Below, one piece after another: positions 9,106 to 61,171 of a DNA stretch of 64,000 nt (its first letter is position 1; each line of letters begins with the position of its first letter). The notes beneath the pieces were generated by a model. That model had not been told where the DNA came from, did no database searches, and was given only the letters and a program-made list of their open reading frames with translations. The stretch comes from Tetrahymena thermophila SB210 (lineage: Eukaryota > Ciliophora > Oligohymenophorea > Hymenostomatida > Tetrahymenidae). The stretch covers positions 1,116,001-1,180,000 of the forward strand of contig NW_002476463.1 of the NCBI RefSeq assembly GCF_000189635.1. The letters are read 5' to 3'. Position numbers and translations under genes: made by a program.

Positions 9106-9221
9106 AGGGTTGGAATACAAAAAGGAGTTGAAGAAACTAATTTATTTCAGACAATTATTTTCTGTTTTTAATATTGTATTTTTATGAAAATTATGTTATA
9201 TTTTTATTAATATAGTCCCCC

Positions 9222-9275
9222 GCATGAATTTTGAGAAAATCATATAATATATCAAAAGTTTCTCAAAATTCATGC
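9222..9275. repeat. 17-bp perfect inverted repeat (hairpin)
   Basis: Arms 9222-9238 and 9259-9275 are exact reverse complements, separated by a 20-nt AT-rich loop. Short imperfect matches continue outward (C-rich run before the left arm, GGGC after the right arm, then TATA on both sides). It sits between the small zinc-ribbon gene and the MCU-like gene. It could be a MITE-like foldback or a 3'-end hairpin; nothing distinguishes these here. Confidence 0.75.
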
Positions 9276-9427
9276 AGGGCACTGTATATCTATTAAACAT
9301 ATTTTTTTGAAAATAGGATTTATTACTATTCAATAAATTATTCCAATTTGATAAATTTGCTTTAATTTAAATAAAATCGTAGGATTAACTAACAAATTAA
9401 CTATCACATAAAGTATCAAAACAAACG

Positions 9428-35622: not shown

Positions 35623-36023
35623 AAGATTGTTTAATATTTTCATCTATGTACATATTTATTTTTTATAAAACTATGCAAATCACCATATTTAATAAAAATA
35701 AATTTCATTTTTTTACATTAATATTCAATGGTAAAAATGTAATTCAGAATATTAATGAATTTTCTTATTTTAATTACTTAATTTGTAAATTCTGGGTAAA
35801 ATTGATTGGAATGGGTATTTTTTTATGATTAAAAGCCATAGATTTTAGGCAACAACAAAATTTGTAAATTAGCTTGTTGGGATATTTGTGATATTTTTTT
35901 GACGAGTTTTTTAATTGAAAAACGAATGATTAATTTAATTTTACTTTACTTTGATTAATAAAGGAAACTTTGAAATTAATATTATTAAAAGATAAATTAA
36001 ACAAAAAAAGGGAATAAGAAAAT
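35623..36023. other. AT-rich intergenic region
   Basis: A chance 69-codon ORF (Phe/Ile/Asn-biased) overlaps the end of the previous gene. Nothing else seen. Confidence 0.55.
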
Positions 36024-38105
36024 ATGAGCTAAGTTAGTAGTCTACCTCAATCAAATTCACATTAAAAAAGAGTTTATAATATCTAGATTGGTAATAAATT
36101 GCCTAATGCAACACATGTGATGAGAAACCCTAAGTCACTTGATAAGCTACTTTATCAACCAATGCCAAATATTCACAATTTGTAAGATTTAATTAATGAA
36201 GGACTTAAAAACTTTGGATAAAGGGAGTTTATTGGAAATAAAAATTTGTAGACAGGCATGTATGAATATGAAACGTATGAAAACATATATAAGAAAGCTA
36301 GAGCTTTAGGTTCCTCTTTGTAGAATTTAAATCTTTTGAAGGTATCTCGAGAATAAAAAACTTTCAGAGTTTACTCCAATTTAAATTAGGATTTTGATGG
36401 TACAATTAAAATGGTAGGTATTTACTGTAAAAATAGACCTGAGTGGACCATATCAGATATGGCAAATGCGCTCTATGGATACACAATGGTTCCAATCTAT
36501 GATACTTTAGGACCTGATTCTGTTAGTTATGTATTAGGACACTCTTTAATCACTACTTGCATTTGCTCAGCTCAATCAATAGAAATTTTATCAAAAACAA
36601 AATAACTTTTTGATTTGAAGAATATAATATCTTTAGAGGATAATTACAGTAAGGAGTCTAATCAAATTTTAACATAAAGAGGCATTAAAATAATTTCTTT
36701 CAGTGATATAATTGCATTAGGAATTAAAAATGGTGTTCCTCTACCTAAGAATATACCTACAGATACTATATTTACATTCAGCTACACTTCTGGTACTACT
36801 GGAAATCCAAAAGGAGCAATGCTAACTCACAGAAATTTGCTTTCTGTAGTTTAGAGTAAGCAAAATGGTGACCATTAATTTAATGAAGCAGACACCCACT
36901 TAAGCTACTTGCCATTACCTCATATATTCGAGAGATTTGTCCATGTTACCTGCTGGTTAAGTGGAACCAAAATTGCTTATTATAGTGGAAATATTCTTAA
37001 ATTAAGAGAAGATTTTGCTGCAGCAAAACCTACTGCTGCTATATTTGTACCAAGATTGCTAAACAAAATATATGAAGATTTAAATAATTTTATTAACAAT
37101 CAACCCCAACCTCAAAAAGAGTACATTCAAAAAGCGATAAATGAAAAGTTAAAAAATTTGTACTCAGAATAAAATCCTACAGTTTTTCATCCAATATATG
37201 ACGAGAAAATTTTCAAAAAGTTTAATGAAATGTTTGGAGGAAAAATTAAGCAAATCGGAAGTGGTTCTGCTCCACTTTCTTAAAAAGTTATTGACTTTTT
37301 TAAAGTTATTTTTAGTGCTAACTTTAACTAAGGCTATGGTTAAACAGAAGGAACAGGTTTAGAAACAAACTAAGTACATGGAGATAATGTTGAAAATAAT
37401 GTTGGAGGTATTGTTACAGGTATTGAGCTAAAATTAGAAGATGTTCCTGATATGGGGTATCTTTCTACAGACAAGGATGAGTTTGGAAATCATATGCCAA
37501 GAGGAGAAATATGTGTAAGAGGTCATAGTGTATTTGCAGGATATTATAAAGATGAGGAAAAAACAATAGAGGCTATTGATTCTGAAGGCTGGCTTCACTC
37601 AGGTGATATTGGTATTATTTTACCTAATGGAGCTTTGCGAATAATAGACAGAAAAAAAAACATTATGAAGTTGCAATAAGGAGAATACATTTCACCTGAA
37701 AAAGTAGAAAACATCTACATAAGATCAAGAGGAGTATCAGAAGCTTACATTCATGGAGATTCAATGTAATCATATTGTGTTGGAATAATAGTACCTAACC
37801 CTGATGAAATAGTTAAAATTGCAAAGGAACTTAATATTTCTGAAACCTCAATAGAAGCTTTATGCAAAAATAAATTAATAAACGATGCTTATCTAAAAAT
37901 TATCTAAGAATTTGGAAAGAGAGAAGGTTTATTGTCTTTCGAGTAAGCCCATAAAATTTACTTAGAGCCAGTTTCACTAGCTTTTAAAGGATGTCTAACT
38001 TAAAGCTTTAAGCTTTAAAGACATATAGCAAAATAGGTATTTAAGTAGATCTTTGACTAAATGTACAGTACTCCTTTACCTCCAAAATTATAATCTCGTT
38101 TGTGA
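36024..38105 (+). CDS. Long-chain acyl-CoA synthetase, paralogue 1 (PTS1 SRL)
   Basis: Intronless ORF of 693 aa, normal length for an ACSL. Adenylate-forming (AMP-binding) motifs are in order: P-loop '[11 protein letters not shown]' at residues 254-264, '[13 protein letters not shown]' near 295, 'GYGQTEGTG' at 437-445, 'GWLHSGDIG' at 522-530 and '[22 protein letters not shown]' signature elements near 540-560. The enzyme activates fatty acids to acyl-CoA with ATP for beta-oxidation or lipid synthesis. There is no signal peptide. The last three residues are Ser-Arg-Leu, a canonical type 1 peroxisomal targeting signal, suggesting peroxisomal fatty-acid activation. Tandem paralogue at 39650. TAA/TAG are read as Gln throughout; the stop is TGA. 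Confidence 0.93.
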
Positions 38106-39649
38106 TTAAATTGCTAGTTTCGATTTATTAAACCTATATTTTAAATAATTTGAAAAATGTTATTTGCAATTAAAAAAATAATTTTAATAGTAACTTATTA
38201 ATTAAATTGCTTATTAGTTATTAATGCATCAAATAAAATGTAAAAACATAAAAAATTGTTATTAGAACTATTAATTGTATTTATTTGTTATGATAACAAA
38301 AATTTAAAGAATGAAATATTTTAGTTTTCAGAGCCATTTAAACAGAAAATGTTTTTTGTAAATAATTTTATTTTTATTGTAAAATTTATTATTAAAATTA
38401 AAAATAATAACTATAAAAAATGCTTAATTTAGCGAAATTTTTTAGTTCTAAGGATTGATTAAGAAAATACATAAGAATAGTCTATTTTCCTTTTAATAAT
38501 AGCTGGATAAGCTTCGATCAGTATTTTTTTAAACTGATTGGGTATATCATTGTAAATTAATTATTTATTTAATTGTCTTAAGCGATAAAATAACTTATTC
38601 GTACTCATAAAATAAATACTAAAATAATATTTACGTTTTTTAATTGTAAATTTATTTCTAAAGCATTAAAACGTAAAATTTTAGTTATTAAAATTAAGAA
38701 ATATTTTGATTTACGTTTTATTATTGGTTTTTTAATAATCTAATTAAAAATGTTCTATTTAAAATGCAAATATTATACAAGGTAGAAGAAAAATATTTAA
38801 AGAAGTTCATGATTATGAAAATTTGGAATCATATTGCTAATATAAGGCAACATTTTTGATTTTATATTTTAAGGTATCAACTATTTCTAAAACTTATTTA
38901 AATATTTATTAAATGGTATGATTCAATTAGCATGTATAGATTACTGATATTTGGTTTCTCTAATATTTCTATTTTTAGAGAGAATACCAAATACCATAAA
39001 ATTTTGAAAAGATTTTGTAATAATTTAAATTACAAAAAAAATAAATAACCTAAAGCTAATTAAATCTTTATCTTTAATAGAAAAAGTTGTAAGACTGATA
39101 AGTAATTTGATGTAAAGAATTTACGTATTATTTAGACACGCATTATAATTGAAAAATAAAAGATACAAATTGCATCATGCTTTTTAAAAAAATATTTAAG
39201 TGAACGTTTATTTTTATAATGAAACATAATTGTACATTTTAGTTGAGAATTATATAACTTAGCTTCCAAATTTTGCACTTCTTCAGTTTTTATTAAATAT
39301 TTTTAAAATAAAATTGAGCATATTTGTTGTGTTTATGAAGATTCGAAATACTCATTTCAAAACTTTTACAACCATTTATTTGATTTAAAAAGAAGCGGAT
39401 GATAGAAACTTGAATATGCTTTTTATTAAATGAAAAGACTTAAATAAATTATTCTTATCTGTTTAGTTAGAAGTGATGCAATTTCTAATCTTAATTAAAA
39501 TAACTCTGTATCAAAAAAAATTTGATTCTTTCTGATTTTTGATATTCTTTTACCTAATAAAAACTCATCTGGTTATAAAAAGAATCAACAAATTAATTAA
39601 TTAATTAAATTAAATAATAATAAACAAATCAATTTCTAAATTAATAAAA
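38106..39649. other. 1.5-kb AT-rich intergenic region
   Basis: No gene seen. A weak inverted repeat lies at about 38949-38993 (TATTTGG..TCTCT / AGAGAG..CCAAATA). Confidence 0.5.
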
Positions 39650-41725
39650 ATGAGTGTAGGTAATTAAGTTTAAAAGTCAATATCAGAAAGAGTTTATAAC
39701 ATTCCAGTTGGAAATAAGCTTCCTAATTCTTCTCACGCAATGAGAAATCCTTAATCAGTTAATGGACTCCTCTACTAACCCCTCCCTGGAGTGCTAAATC
39801 TCTAAGATCTAATCTAAGAAGGTCTCAAAGTAAATAGCCAATATGATTTTGTAGGAACAAAGAATCCTAAAACAGGAGTCTATGAATATGAAAAATACCA
39901 AGATATTTATGATTAAGCAGTTGCTTTAGGTTCTTCATTTTAGAATTATAACTTGCTTAAAGTCTCAAACGATCACAAAAATTTTAGATTTTATAATAAC
40001 CTAAATCAAAATTTTGATGGAACTTTAAAAATGGTAGGAATATATTGTAAGAATAGACGTGAATGGACTATTTCTGATTTTGCTAATGCCCTTTATGGCT
40101 TTACTATGGTTCCTCTTTATGACACTCTAGGACCTGAATCTGCAAGTTATATATTAGGACACTCTGGAATACTTACATGCATTTGTTCTACCTAGCAAAT
40201 AGATATCTTGTCAAAGGCTACTAATCTGCATGATTTAAAATATATCATTTCTATTGACGAAGATCTTAGCGTGGAAACTTAATAAACCTTACAAAATAGA
40301 GGAATTAAAATTCTTAAATTCAAAGACTTGATAGATTAAGGTCGCAAATAGCTGGTACCTTTACCAAAGAATCTTCCTTCTGATACAATTTTTTCATTTA
40401 GCTACACATCTGGAACTACTGGAAATCCTAAAGGAGCTATGATCACTCATAGAAATTTGATTTCTATTGTATGCAGTCAATAAAGAAGTGAGTCTAAGTT
40501 CGATAATAAAGATGTCTTCCTCAGCTATTTACCTTTGCCTCATATTTATGAAAGATTTGTTTAAGTGACTTGCTGGTTTACTGGAACTAAAATTGCTTAT
40601 TATGGAGGAGATATGCTGAAATTAAGAGAAGACTTTGCTGCTGCTTAACCAACTGTTGCTATTTTTGTTCCAAGACTATTGAATAAGTTTTATGAAGAAA
40701 TAAATGCTTTCATCAGCAGAATGCCTTAAGCATAGTAAAACATAATACAAAAAGCTATTTAAGAAAAGATGTAAAATCTACAGAAAAAAGAAACATACAC
40801 TTTCCATCATCCAATTTATGATGAGTAAATTTTTAGTAAATTCAAAAACATGTTTGGTGGAAAGCTAAGAAGTATGAATTCTGGTGCAGCTCCTATTTCT
40901 TAAAAGGTATTAGACTTTTTCAAAGTAATATTTTCATGTAACGTCGCATAAGGCTATGGCTAAACTGAAGGTACAGGAATGGAAACAAGCTAGGTTATGG
41001 GCGATATAGAAGAAAATAATGTAGGTGGTATTGTTTCAAGTATCGAAATCAAATTAGAAGATGTTCCTGACATGGGATATCTCTCCACTGATAAAGATGA
41101 ATTTGGAAATCCAATGCCAAGAGGTGAGATATGCATTAGAGGACACAGTGTCTTTGCTGGATATTACAAAGACGATTAAAAAACAAATGAAACTTTTGAT
41201 TCAGATGGCTGGATGCATTCTGGTGATATCGGAGCTATCTTGCCTAGTGGAGCTTTGAGAATTATTGATAGAAAGAAAAATCTTTTCAAACTACAATAAG
41301 GAGAATATGTTTCTCCCGAAAAAATAGAAAACATCTACATAAGAGCTAGAGGTGTTTAAGAGGCTTTTGTTCACGGTGATTCTTTGTAAACTTATTGCAT
41401 TGCAGTAATTGTACCAAAACCTGACGAAATAGTTAAAATAGCTTAAGAATTAAACATAAAAGAATAAAAAATTGAAGTTTTATGCCAAAATTAATAAGTA
41501 AATCAGTTCTACTTAAATACAATTTAAGATTTTGGTAAAAAAGAGGGATTATTTTCTTTTGAATAAGCTCAAAAAATTCACCTAGAACCTGTATCATTAG
41601 CTGTTCATGGGTGCTTGACTAGTAGTTTTAAGCTCTAGAGACACATAGCTAAATAAATATTCAAAAAAGTAATTGATGAACTCTATAGTAAACCTTTACA
41701 ATAGAAGTAATCTCCTCGTTTGTGA
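39650..41725 (+). CDS. Long-chain acyl-CoA synthetase, paralogue 2
   Basis: Intronless ORF of 691 aa, aligning end to end with the upstream ACSL. The P-loop '[11 protein letters not shown]' starts at residue 252. '[13 protein letters not shown]', 'GYGQTEGTG', 'GWMHSGDIG' and '[21 protein letters not shown]' elements all follow in the expected order, so catalysis is likely intact. The C terminus is Ser-Pro-Arg-Leu, so the final tripeptide is PRL rather than the canonical SRL of its neighbour; peroxisomal import is therefore doubtful, and the two copies may act in different compartments. The internal coding stretch is highly similar, while the spacer between the genes is not, so the duplication is not very recent. 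Confidence 0.93.
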
Positions 41726-46258: not shown

Positions 46259-46934
46259 AACTTCTAATAAATAACATGACACTCACTCACTACTAATAAA
46301 CATTCACAACTTATAATCGAAATATGCTGCTAAAATTATTTAATTTCAATTATAAATTTCATTTATAAATCAATAAATATATGCATGTCTAAGTTTATAA
46401 AAATCAATTATCTTTAATGAAACTATTTAAAATTCTCATAATAATTATATATGCGTGCGTATTATAACTAATTGGCAATTATTATTTTTTGTAAAAATAT
46501 TAAAGAAATAAATAAATTCACTATATTTAAAATTAAACCATTTTAAAAAGTTAGAAGTTCTATTATTTTAGCAAGCAATTCTTTAATTTTTGGAATATCT
46601 GTAATAAATAAGAAATAAATTGTTGCATTATATTGTAATAATTAGTTTTTAAAAATAAGCCAAATTATTGTTTGTTTATTTATTTATTTTCTTTATGGAG
46701 AGAAAATATGCGTTACAGTAAATTTTAAAAAATAATTGAAAAATTTAAAACGAATGAGGTAAATTTCAACAAGAAAAAAACTATGAATTAGTGGTCTTTT
46801 ATCAAGTTTTTAAAAGTTCTATTAATAATAAATTGAGAAGAGAAATAATCTTTAAAATAAACAATTTAACAAAAATTTATCAAATAAAAATAATTACAAA
46901 AAAGTAACAACTCTAAATTAGTAGGTAGGTAGGT
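46259..46934. other. AT-rich intergenic region with short GTAG repeat
   Basis: No gene. The stretch immediately before the ATG at 46935 is a short (TAGG)n run, three to four units, unique among the five tandem genes. Confidence 0.55.
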
Positions 46935-55813: not shown

Positions 55814-57832
55814 ATGTAAAAACTATAAAAATTAGATATATTTTCTTAACAATTTTCTTTTTTTGTGGGATAAAAAAAGAAAAAGAAAACCTTAGAAGGA
55901 GGCTTGTACACAATTACAGCTTTTAGTTTATCTTTAGGTTATCTTATTTATCTTTTAGTTTTATTTTTTGATAACAAGTTTCTTCCAAAAATTACGAGCA
56001 AAATAAAAAATTAAACTACTTTATAAGATATTTAACTAAATTAGAATGTCTTTGGGTTTACCTTTAGTAGCTAAGGTTTGACTTTACAATAATTAGAATA
56101 ATCTACAGGTAAGCAATATTTAATATTTAAAGCATAGTTTGCTTATATATCTTTATAAAAATAAAATTATACTGATCTTCCTATTATTGATTGTCCAGAT
56201 TAAAGCTTCTCAGGTTATTTGTGCCTTGATTTTAATAACATGACTGATATCCAAAAAACTTTGTCAGTTGATCCAACTACATAAGCTATGTCATAATATA
56301 CATTAACGGTTTAGCCTTGTACAGGATTGCCAACGTGTGCTAGTCCTGCAGAAATATAAAATAAAATAATAGACAAAGATTTTTAGTTTTATGTAAAAGT
56401 TAGAATTGTACAGTTTAATGAGTAATCTCAAAAATATGAATAAGGGTACTAGATAGATTTAGTTTAATTTGATGATAACTTGGCTTTATAAAATTAGTAT
56501 TAGCTAACTTAGTCAATAACTACAGTTAATCAAGGTTTCCTTTTCTAAAATACATCAGTCTCAAAGTTTATATCTGGTTATTAGAAATCATCATTATACT
56601 ATTCCCCAAATAATTTACTTTAAAAGGCAGGATTCACAGGATACGCTTAATTTTTGTTTTTTTTACAACAGAACTAAGAGATAAATCATATTCAATATCC
56701 ACTTATTACAGAAGCTTTGGCTCAATTTATGCCTGTAGTAAAAATATTATTTATATTAGGTATTTTTACAAGATTATTTTCTGAATCAAAAATAGTAGAA
56801 AATTTAAATACATTATTTTTGAAAGAATATTACAGGGGAACTGCTCTTAAATTATTATCATCTGAATAAGAAGATGAATAATTAGAAAGTAATAAAAGCA
56901 ATAATCAAAATAAGATTAATTAGTTAAAGAAAATTAATTAAAATATTGATAAAAATGCAATTTATGGGATTAATTAAAACAGTGATACCAAATAAATTTA
57001 AAATACTTCTTTAACAGCAGATCAAATTATTGGTTTTTAAAAGTAGATCGATGAAAACGAATTTAAAAATGAAGAAAAATCAAAATTTTATGCTAATTTT
57101 TTTCAATTCTATAAACAATATTTCTTTGGTAAGATAATGAAATAAACTTCCCAAAGAGAAATAATCTATCAAAAGATGTGTAGCTTCACTAAAAAATCAA
57201 TAGATATTTTCTCGTTATATAAGAATATGATAAAGGTAAATATGGCCATTAAATTGCTTATGAGCAAAGAATAATATGCAGCTTTGTAATTTTGTGGATG
57301 TGAAATGGATTAAATAAATTTTGAAAAAAATTCTACTTAGTTTATCAATAATTAAGAAAATATAAGTAATAAAAATTAAGAAATTTTAGATAAATAATAA
57401 AGTAATTAAAACTAAATTTAGTAAACCACTATATGTAAAGCTTAAGATTTAGAAGAAGGTAAACATAAAAAAATAGTTCATAAAAGTGAAGAAGCATATA
57501 GCTTAAATTAGATTCCTGTGATTGACAGTAATTAAACTTCATAAAGATAGACAAACAATAGCTATATTAAATAAATGCCTAAAAATATAGAGTGTTAAAT
57601 ATCTTTAAAAAATAATGAAAACTATTCAACAAATTGCGAGATGCTATCTCCATCAAGTTCAAATTAAATAAATAATCATCTCCAGCAATAAGAAGAAATT
57701 CTTACTAATAAACATATGCTACACCTATATCTAAAGAAATTTATTGATAGAATAAATAGGAATTAAGAATTAACTCAAGTTGATTTAAACATTTACTCAT
57801 CCCTTATAGGATCGTAACCAAAAGTTGGCTGA
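55814..57832 (+). CDS. Two-TM Cys-patterned membrane protein, group B copy 4
   Basis: Intronless, 672 aa, ATG-TAA start. Same domain order as the other group-B copies, with Cys pairs 'DCPDQSFSGYLCLDF' and 'QPCTGLPTCASPAEIQ', TM2 'MPVVKILFILGIFTRLF', and block 'LMSKEQYAALQFCGCEMD'. The C terminus is 'LTQVDLNIYSSLIG'. It forms a pair with the gene at 59011. A stretch near 56513-56740 is almost identical to 59710-59940, more alike than the rest, suggesting recent gene conversion. Complete and unbroken, so it serves as the reference for the interrupted neighbour. Confidence 0.82.
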
Positions 57833-59010: not shown

Positions 59011-61171
59011 ATGCAAAAATTATAAAAATTAGATTTCTTTTCATAGCAATTTTCATTTTTTGTGGGGCTATAAAAGAAAAAGAAAACAATAGAAGGAGGC
59101 TTGTATACTATTGCGGCTTTTGGTTTATCTTTAGGTTATCTCATTTATCTTCTTGTTTTATTTTATGATAACAAGTTTCTTCCCAAAATTACTACTAAAA
59201 TAAAAAATTAAACAACTTTATAGGATATTTAGCTAAGTTAGAGTGTCTTTGGATTTACCTTTAGCAGCTAAGGATTGACTTTGTAATAATTAGAATAATC
59301 TACAGGCAAGCAATATCTCACTTTTAAAGCTTAATACTCTTATATTTCTTTATAAAATTAAAATTATATTGATCTTCCTATTACTAATTGTCCTGATTAA
59401 AATTTCTCAGGTTACTTGTGCCTTGATATTAATAATATGACTGATACCCAAAAAACTCTGACTATTGATCCTACTACATAAGCTATGTCATAATATACAT
59501 TAACAGTTTAGCCTTGTACAGGATTACCAACATGTGCTAGTCCTGATGAAATAAAAAAGTATATAATAGACAACAATTTCTAGTTTTATATGAAAATTAG
59601 AATTGTTCAGTATAATGAGTAATCTTAAAAATATGAATAAGGATACTAAATAGAATTAGTTTAATTTGATGATAGTTTACCATTTTAGAATTAATACTAG
59701 TTAACTTAGTCAGTAACTACAGTTAATCAAGGTTTCCTTTTCTAAAATACATCAGTCTCAAAGTTTATATCTGGTTATTAGAAATCCTCATTATACTATT
59801 CCCCAAATAATTTACTTTAAAAGGCAGGATTCACAGGATACGCTTAATTTTTGTTCTTCTTACAACAAAACTAAGAGATAAATCATATTCAATACCCACT
59901 TATTACAGAAGCTTTGGCTCAATTTATGCCTGTAGTAAATATATTATTTACATTAGGTATTTTTACAAGATTATTTTCAGAATCAAAAATAGTGGAACAT
60001 TTAAATACATTATTTTTGAAAGAATACTATAGGAGCACTGCTCTTAAATTACTATCATCTGAATAAAAAGATGATTAATTAAAAAAAGTGAACCCGAGCT
60101 CAGTAAAAAAAAAAAATATATTTCATCTCTCGGTCCCAGTTGTTGGGACCGAGAGATGAAATATATTTTTTTTTTTTACTGAGCTCGGGTTCACTTTTTT
60201 TTATATATTAATTAAAAGTTAATAAAAGTGATAATAAAAATCAGATTAACCAGCTAAATGAAATAAATAAAAAGATTGATAAAAATGTACTTTATGGTAA
60301 TAATTAAAATATCTAAACAAAATAAAATTCAAATAATCCTTTAACAGCGGAATAAATTATTGGTTTTTAAAAGTAGATCGATGAAAATGAATTTAAAAAT
60401 GAAGGAAAGTCAAAGTTTTAATCAAATTTTTTTCAATTCTACAAGCAATACTTCTTTGGTAAAATAATAAAATAAACTTCTCAAAGGGATAAACTCTATC
60501 AAAAGATGTGCGAATTTACTAAAAAATCAATCGATATTTACTAATTATACAGAAATATGATGAAGGTTAATATGGCAATAAAATTGCTTATGAGCAAAGA
60601 ATAATACGCAGCTTTGTAATATTGTGGATGCGAAATGGATTTAGATTAATTAAATTTTGAGAAAAACTCTCCTTTGTGTCTTAACAATAATTAAAATCTA
60701 ATTTATAAAAATTAAGAAATCTTAGATAAATAACAAAGTAATAACAACTAAATTACTTAACCTATTATATATAATGCTTAACTTTAAGACTTAGAAGAAG
60801 GTAAAAATAAAAAAATAGTTCATAAAAACGATGAAGCATATTTAAATTAGATTGCTGCTATTGACAGTGATTTACCTTTATAAAGGTAGGTAAACAATAG
60901 CTATATATAACAAATGTCAAAAAACAAAGAGTATTAGCTATCCTTAAGAAAGAATGATAACCACTCAACCAATTGCGAGATGCCATCTTTATCAAATTCA
61001 AATTAAACAAGCAATCATCTTCAATAATAGGAAGAAATTCTTACTAATAAACACATACAGCAGTTATATTTAAAGAAATTTATTGACAAGATTAATAGGA
61101 ATTAAGAAATAACGCAAGTTGATTTAAACATCTATTCATCCCTTTTAGGATCAGAATCAAGGTTTAGCTGA
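59011..61171 (+). CDS. Two-TM Cys-patterned membrane protein, group B copy 5 (interrupted)
   Basis: Fifth tandem group-B gene. From ATG 59011 the frame runs through TM1, the Cys pairs ('NCPDQNFSGYLCLDI', 'QPCTGLPTCASPDEI'), TM2 'MPVVNILFTLGIFTRLF' and 'LFLKEYYRSTALKLL', then enters a 133-bp foldback insertion (60074-60206) that brings an in-frame TGA. Beyond it the homologous frame resumes one base out of step ('NPLTAEQIIGFQKQID', 'LMSKEQYAALQYCGCEMD', 'ITQVDLNIYSSLLG') and ends at TGA 61169-61171. Removing exactly 133 bp (one 11-bp direct repeat plus the palindrome) restores a single frame of 676 codons. It is either a gene broken by a recent insertion or one carrying an unremoved eliminated sequence. 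Domain order as in the sister at 55814. Confidence 0.78.
60074..60217. mobile_element. Foldback/MITE-like insertion with 11-bp direct repeats
   Basis: A perfect palindrome spans 60081-60201: two 58-bp arms (60081-60138 and 60144-60201) around a 5-nt loop. The arms include unusually GC-rich blocks (GTGAACCCGAGCTCAG and CTCTCGGTCCCA) joined by a 12-A/12-T tract. The palindrome is flanked by an 11-bp direct repeat, ATTAATTAAAA, at 60074-60084 and 60207-60217, which contains TTAA. The net insertion is 133 bp. It sits inside an Asn/Lys/Gln-rich coding segment that is uninterrupted in the sister gene at 55814. It encodes no protein. Shape and target duplication fit a non-autonomous DNA transposon or an unexcised internal eliminated sequence. 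Confidence 0.85.

Follow-up and report, generated by a model that had tools for sequence, protein, structure and literature searches.

The window, a 64,000-nt stretch of Tetrahymena thermophila DNA (contig C91 of the 101-Mb, 445-contig genome G000), carries a five-unit tandem gene family between positions 46758 and 61171, with units at 46758, 49888, 52681, 55814 and 59011. The encoded proteins are ~670–685 aa long with the N-terminus MQKLQK, and a Pfam scan of two of the units (46758 and 55814) returned no match. The unit at 59011–61171 (plus strand) is interrupted: in the ciliate code, its upstream frame meets an in-frame TGA at 60157–60159, where the unspliced protein ends after 382 aa, and its downstream frame is open to a TGA at 61169. 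Its sister at 55814–57832 (plus strand) is uninterrupted and was taken as the empty site for comparison. Wherever within 60074–60085 a deletion of 133 bp began, it left one identical open frame of 675 aa, the product of which aligned to the sister without gaps at the insertion site, as judged by eye. The dN/dS relative to the sister was 0.17 upstream of the insert (358 codons) and 0.22 downstream of it (312 codons). Since both gene halves look selected, the insertion is either recent or removed from the message.

The core of the insert is a palindrome of perfect 58-bp inverted arms (left, 60081–60138, minus strand; right, 60144–60201, plus strand) around a 5-nt loop, GTTGT (60139–60143), the first mismatch falling at 60080/60202; a repeat finder called the same structure as 61-nt arms of 98% identity. 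The arms are identical throughout, including a 12-nt A/T run. An inner TGTTGGG, also present in related copies on contigs C116, C38 and C421, occurs in the right arm but not in the left one. RNA folding of 60060–60230 yielded −96.9 kcal/mol (z −20.5), a value matched by none of 200 shuffles. When the window and 23 fetched loci were scanned for palindromes, 60081–60201 was the strongest of the short-loop type, scoring 96 as compared to 38 for the runner-up and 23 for the third. The insert has a GC content of 0.32 as opposed to 0.24–0.26 in the two flanking exon halves. Scanned against Rfam at gathering scores, the window gave no match, and ARAGORN did not find a tRNA.

Flanking the palindrome is an 11-bp direct repeat, ATTAATTAAAA, with copies at 60074–60084 and 60207–60217 (both plus strand) spaced 133 apart. 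The repeat contains TTAA, which hence stands at both ends of the insert. Among 20,000 random placements in the window, 0.34% gave a match of at least 11 bp over 15 spacings; among 20,000 within coding stretches, none did. We infer the repeat to be a target-site duplication, with a true length of at most 11 bp. A mariner-type TA duplication at this site, worked through by hand, was rejected: relative to the sister, the gene would retain 11 surplus bases and be out of frame. An earlier note on this DNA had described a GC-rich foldback with two identical 58-bp arms and a 5-nt loop, an 11-bp direct repeat containing TTAA, restoration of the frame upon removal of 133 bp and an uninterrupted sister at 55814, all of which were borne out here.

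With respect to splicing, the same note had tried three GT-AG pairs, none of which restored the frame, and had concluded that the insert was not intron-like; this exclusion was premature. The six GT and six AG dinucleotides within 59990–60339 form 36 pairs, half of which (18/36) bring back an open frame; in 15 of these the donor lies within the insert. Candidate introns include a 142-nt segment at 60103–60244 (GTAAAA...TCAG), as well as 60088–60244, 60088–60253 and 60103–60253, all on the plus strand and all restoring the frame; the two ending at 60244 are in phase 0. Judged from the sequence, the insert may, whatever its origin, work as an intron with its donor at 60103 (or 60088) and its 3' end at 60244 or 60253, a reading we deem possible, if doubtful. 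The abundance of suitable pairs and the purifying selection on the downstream gene half speak for it. On the other hand, the candidates are no richer in A+T than the exons (GC of 0.23–0.29 versus 0.24–0.26), and the low dN/dS equally fits a recent insertion. Splicing is compatible with the excision-scar reading developed below, and its probability stands separately.

A search for the arms, as proposed in the earlier note, was run on the 101-Mb assembly with the whole palindrome, single arms and sequence patterns, the resulting copy counts being lower bounds. It returned at least 20 other places with a single arm each (a set of 19 plus a copy on C344), while the window alone has two. A paired copy is expected as two adjacent opposite-strand matches, as given by the window itself, and no second such copy was among the 13 and 11 matches listed for the single-arm queries. 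Pattern matches on C214, C302 and C111 had no TATATAT within 150 bp and were left out of the 19. The C344 copy (L075, 1501–1566), probably a diverged single-arm member of the family, was recognised afterwards and is reported apart.

The relatives share an outer end and differ in a ragged inner one. At the outer end, 18 of the 19 single copies read TATATAT, with TATAATAT in the remaining one (C118). Aligned to two reference arms, the inner ends of the 19 copies fell at 57–71 bp (mean 64.9, sd 3.7, spread 14 bp). In the window, the palindrome centre lies 67 bp from the right arm’s TATATAT end, about where the single-arm copies stop. Because the two reference arms also terminate at TATATAT on one side and close to the inner end on the other, we repeated the measurement by pairs, obtaining usable alignments for 126 of 171. 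The pairwise outer end had a median position of +1 bp from TATATAT, lying within 3 bp in 68% and within 8 bp in 79% of ends, and the pairwise inner end a median of 65 bp (10–90%: 53–81). Best-partner inner ends fell at 59–81 bp in 17 of the 19 copies, the outliers being C332 (162) and C262 (95). The 21% of pair ends that over- or undershot TATATAT by more than 8 bp count against a sharp outer end. The pairwise alignments weaken its sharpness and C344 adds a fitting copy, the balance among the competing explanations staying as it was.

Some of the blurred outer ends derive from shared flanks, as with C231 and C38, and others perhaps from A+T-rich DNA. The copies on C231 and C38 (L003 and L005) have more than 100 bp of outer flank in common, but not the inner flank, which suggests a single insertion that was duplicated and has different distal junctions. 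Those on C391 and C67 likewise align beyond the outer end. Inner flanks are mostly unrelated among copies: the top pair scores were 55 (C231/C116), 48 and 41, and unrelated outer flanks reach 41.

One relative lies in a tandem array on C116 (~327–366 kb, L018–L036), for which 13 related units were found, one of them with a single arm and the others serving as empty sites for its outer edge. BLAST homology to this unit ended at locus positions 1563–1568 for 11 of 12 paralogues (at 1566 in six) and at 1554 for the twelfth; the arm starts at 1567 with TATATACAG. For most paralogues, homology restarted at 1808–1809. The other edge of the element is undefined because the stretch before this point is not alignable.

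If the ragged end is a deletion junction, a second TATA should lie ~65 bp further on according to the published boundary rule. TATATA occurred 60–76 bp past the ragged end in six of the 19 copies (C38, C332, C162b, C59, C183 and C118), as compared to a background expectation of 0.35–0.37 of 19 and at most two in 68 control windows. It ranked first of 64 A/T hexamers at the predicted place (uncorrected p = 9e-7). The C344 copy, which was not part of this test, combines a 66-bp arm with TATATA 67 bp past its inner end. With it included, the far-side motif is present in 7 and absent from 13 of 20 copies, the latter count arguing against a scar. No clear inverted partner arm was detected across the junction of the 19 single copies: 17 scored below their own background maximum, C255 equalled it (28), and C162b reached 27 against 26. 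Elsewhere in the window and in 23 loci, TATATA pairs spaced ~130 bp apart were not in excess. Matches to piggyBac transposases were present on three contigs (C209, C114 and C411), all with in-frame TAA. Those on C411 lie at most 3.3 kb from the contig start and contain in-frame TAA, but no TAG.

In the available portions of Lin et al. 2019 (PMC6547420), flanking inverted repeats are reported to set the boundaries of internal eliminated sequences (IESs). TATA-core inverted-repeat pentamers lie ~65 bp outside 2700 T. thermophila IESs, whose junctions are microheterogeneous, and removal of two other flank motifs in vivo made boundaries variable (PMC6547420). The anatomy of the arm family matches that published for imprecisely eliminated Tetrahymena IESs. 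We therefore interpret the palindrome as, probably, a somatic excision scar, in which imprecise elimination kept both transposon ends as a hairpin. A DNA transposon with inverted terminal repeats would have entered the gene in the germline, duplicating a short A+T-rich target. During somatic genome formation, the transposon interior would be removed as an IES by the imprecise heterochromatin-guided pathway (Tpb2 type), with the cut made ~65 bp inside a TATA-type boundary signal at the transposon’s own outer edge. A cut fixed at this distance implies that ~65 bp of each end would escape removal, and end joining could then unite the two retained ends into a near-perfect hairpin. Beyond the anatomy described above, we infer a germline interior, a protein that recognises the boundary motif and the time at which the deletion occurs.

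Applied to the window, the left and the right arm would each represent one transposon end, the left one lacking the TATATAT terminus in the family alignments. The GTTGT loop, at the distance where single copies end, would be the putative excision junction. TATATAT at 60202–60208 (no strand assigned, as for the loop) is the outer terminus common to the arm family and a candidate boundary signal (PMC6547420). The locus is most simply read as a single junction with an end of the same element on either side, and the insert fits better as the retained edge of an eliminated element than as an element escaping elimination. Several findings count against a scar. TATATAT is present on the right side only, the single copies showed no clear partner arm, and TATATA pairs spaced ~130 bp apart were not in excess elsewhere. 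Hamilton et al. 2016 (PMC5182062) report that coding regions contain hardly any Tetrahymena IESs of the imprecisely excised kind. The broader proposal of the earlier note, that one copy of a tandem gene received an insertion related to transposons and that there is a link to ciliate DNA elimination, is upheld.

Several other explanations were weighed against an excision scar. Perfect palindromes with a short loop are a common form of chimera, which would speak for an assembly or cloning artefact; given arm relatives on 19 other contigs, a direct repeat at the edges and an inner-end distance in common with those relatives, we regard such an artefact as very improbable. A young foldback MITE, one of two origins considered in the earlier note, would comprise the whole 122–133-bp palindrome and look alike in germline and soma. 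This explanation accommodates the inverted arms, the flanking direct repeat and the sister’s empty site, and dispenses with an elimination step. While the inverted repeats and the target-site duplication of that proposal hold up, several copies of a whole element did not emerge: the arms are paired at only one of at least 21 places, the single-arm queries having yielded no second pair. The ragged end is moreover the inner one, past which a third of the copies have TATATA at a constant spacing, and we consider a MITE unlikely. Alternatively, a local inverted duplication could have made a single-arm copy palindromic by template switching during replication or repair. The identity of the arms down to their A/T run, the restriction of TGTTGGG to the right arm and the lack of TATATAT on the left arm are all in keeping with such an event, which leaves the 11-bp direct repeat and the frame relative to the sister unexplained and which we hold to be improbable.

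The second origin named in the earlier note was a ciliate IES retained in this copy, with TTAA ends reminiscent of piggyBac-type transposases; such an insert would be a precise coding-region IES of the TPB1/TPB6 class. The six published coding-region IESs of T. thermophila are short and precisely excised, with TTAA followed inwards by CACTTT, according to the available portions of Hamilton et al. 2016 (PMC5182062). TTAA does stand in both direct repeats, and 133 bp is close in length to the smallest of these six elements (136, 188 and 194 bp; PMC5182062). CACTTT, however, is absent, the sequences inwards of the two TTAA sites being TTAAAAAAAGTG and TATATAAAAAAAAGTG, and only three of 19 relatives (C38, C183 and C262) have TTAA no more than 8 bp away from the outer end. 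A retained precise IES hence appears most improbable. The insert resembles TPB1/TPB6 elements in being short, in coding sequence and edged by TTAA (PMC5182062, PMC6547420), and differs from them in its missing CACTTT terminal repeat and in being present, unexcised, in the assembly (PMC5182062).

An excision scar, our preferred interpretation, has partial precedents. Like the Tpb2-type ‘TATA’ group of Lin et al. (PMC6547420), the arm family has TATA ~65 bp from a microheterogeneous junction. Unlike in that group, as far as described in the available text, the motif here forms the outer end of an identifiable repeat family, two ends of which meet in an exon in the window, with TATATAT on one side only. 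Transposon termini kept in the macronucleus were reported for some cases by Hamilton et al. 2016 (PMC5182062), and a scar would likewise consist of transposon ends left after incomplete elimination. Those termini reflect a bias among curated elements, whereas the present case offers one family with a measured cut distance and a coding locus where both ends would be kept. Jaspan et al. 2019 (PMC6698652) reported Ltl1 to bind IES flanks and suggested, in the portions available, that sites of boundary proteins are former transposon ends. The arm family would resemble the Ltl1-bound flanks in a transposon-end origin of its candidate boundary signal; the preferred Ltl1 site, on the other hand, is located 70–120 bp from the boundary (PMC6698652). 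In the available portions of the Tetrahymena literature on IES flanks, piggyBac excision, MITEs and exon palindromes, we found no description of the palindrome or its arm family.

That the elimination boundary signals of Tetrahymena are former transposon ends was proposed by Jaspan et al. 2019 (PMC6698652, available portions), and a family whose outer terminus lies ~65 bp from the cut makes this origin directly testable. The window case illustrates the effect that imprecise elimination would have on an exon, and hints at a route from transposon to intron. In a family carrying its own boundary at the outer edge, the soma might always keep ~65 bp of each end; two intact ends in an exon could then give rise to a perfect hairpin with splice sites, and thereby to a new intron that is short in the soma and a whole transposon in the germline. 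We regard this extended scheme as distinctly unlikely.

The window contains a second, imperfect palindrome at 9198–9302, with arms at 9210–9238 and 9259–9287 (29 nt, 90% identity) separated by a 20-nt loop and with TATA at 9211 and 9285. Its ends read AGTGCCCTGCATG, which we take to resemble Tc1/mariner termini. A genome search for this palindrome found no other copy; it is possibly another two-ended scar. Of seven window proteins compared with solved structures, five gave no match at 0.001 and two gave distant matches only (best 155 and 59 bits). Upstream of the tandem family, adjacent genes for AMP-binding enzymes occupy 35955–38105 and 39536–41725. The solved structures nearest to the product of 35955–38105 are adenylation domains of carboxylic acid reductases.
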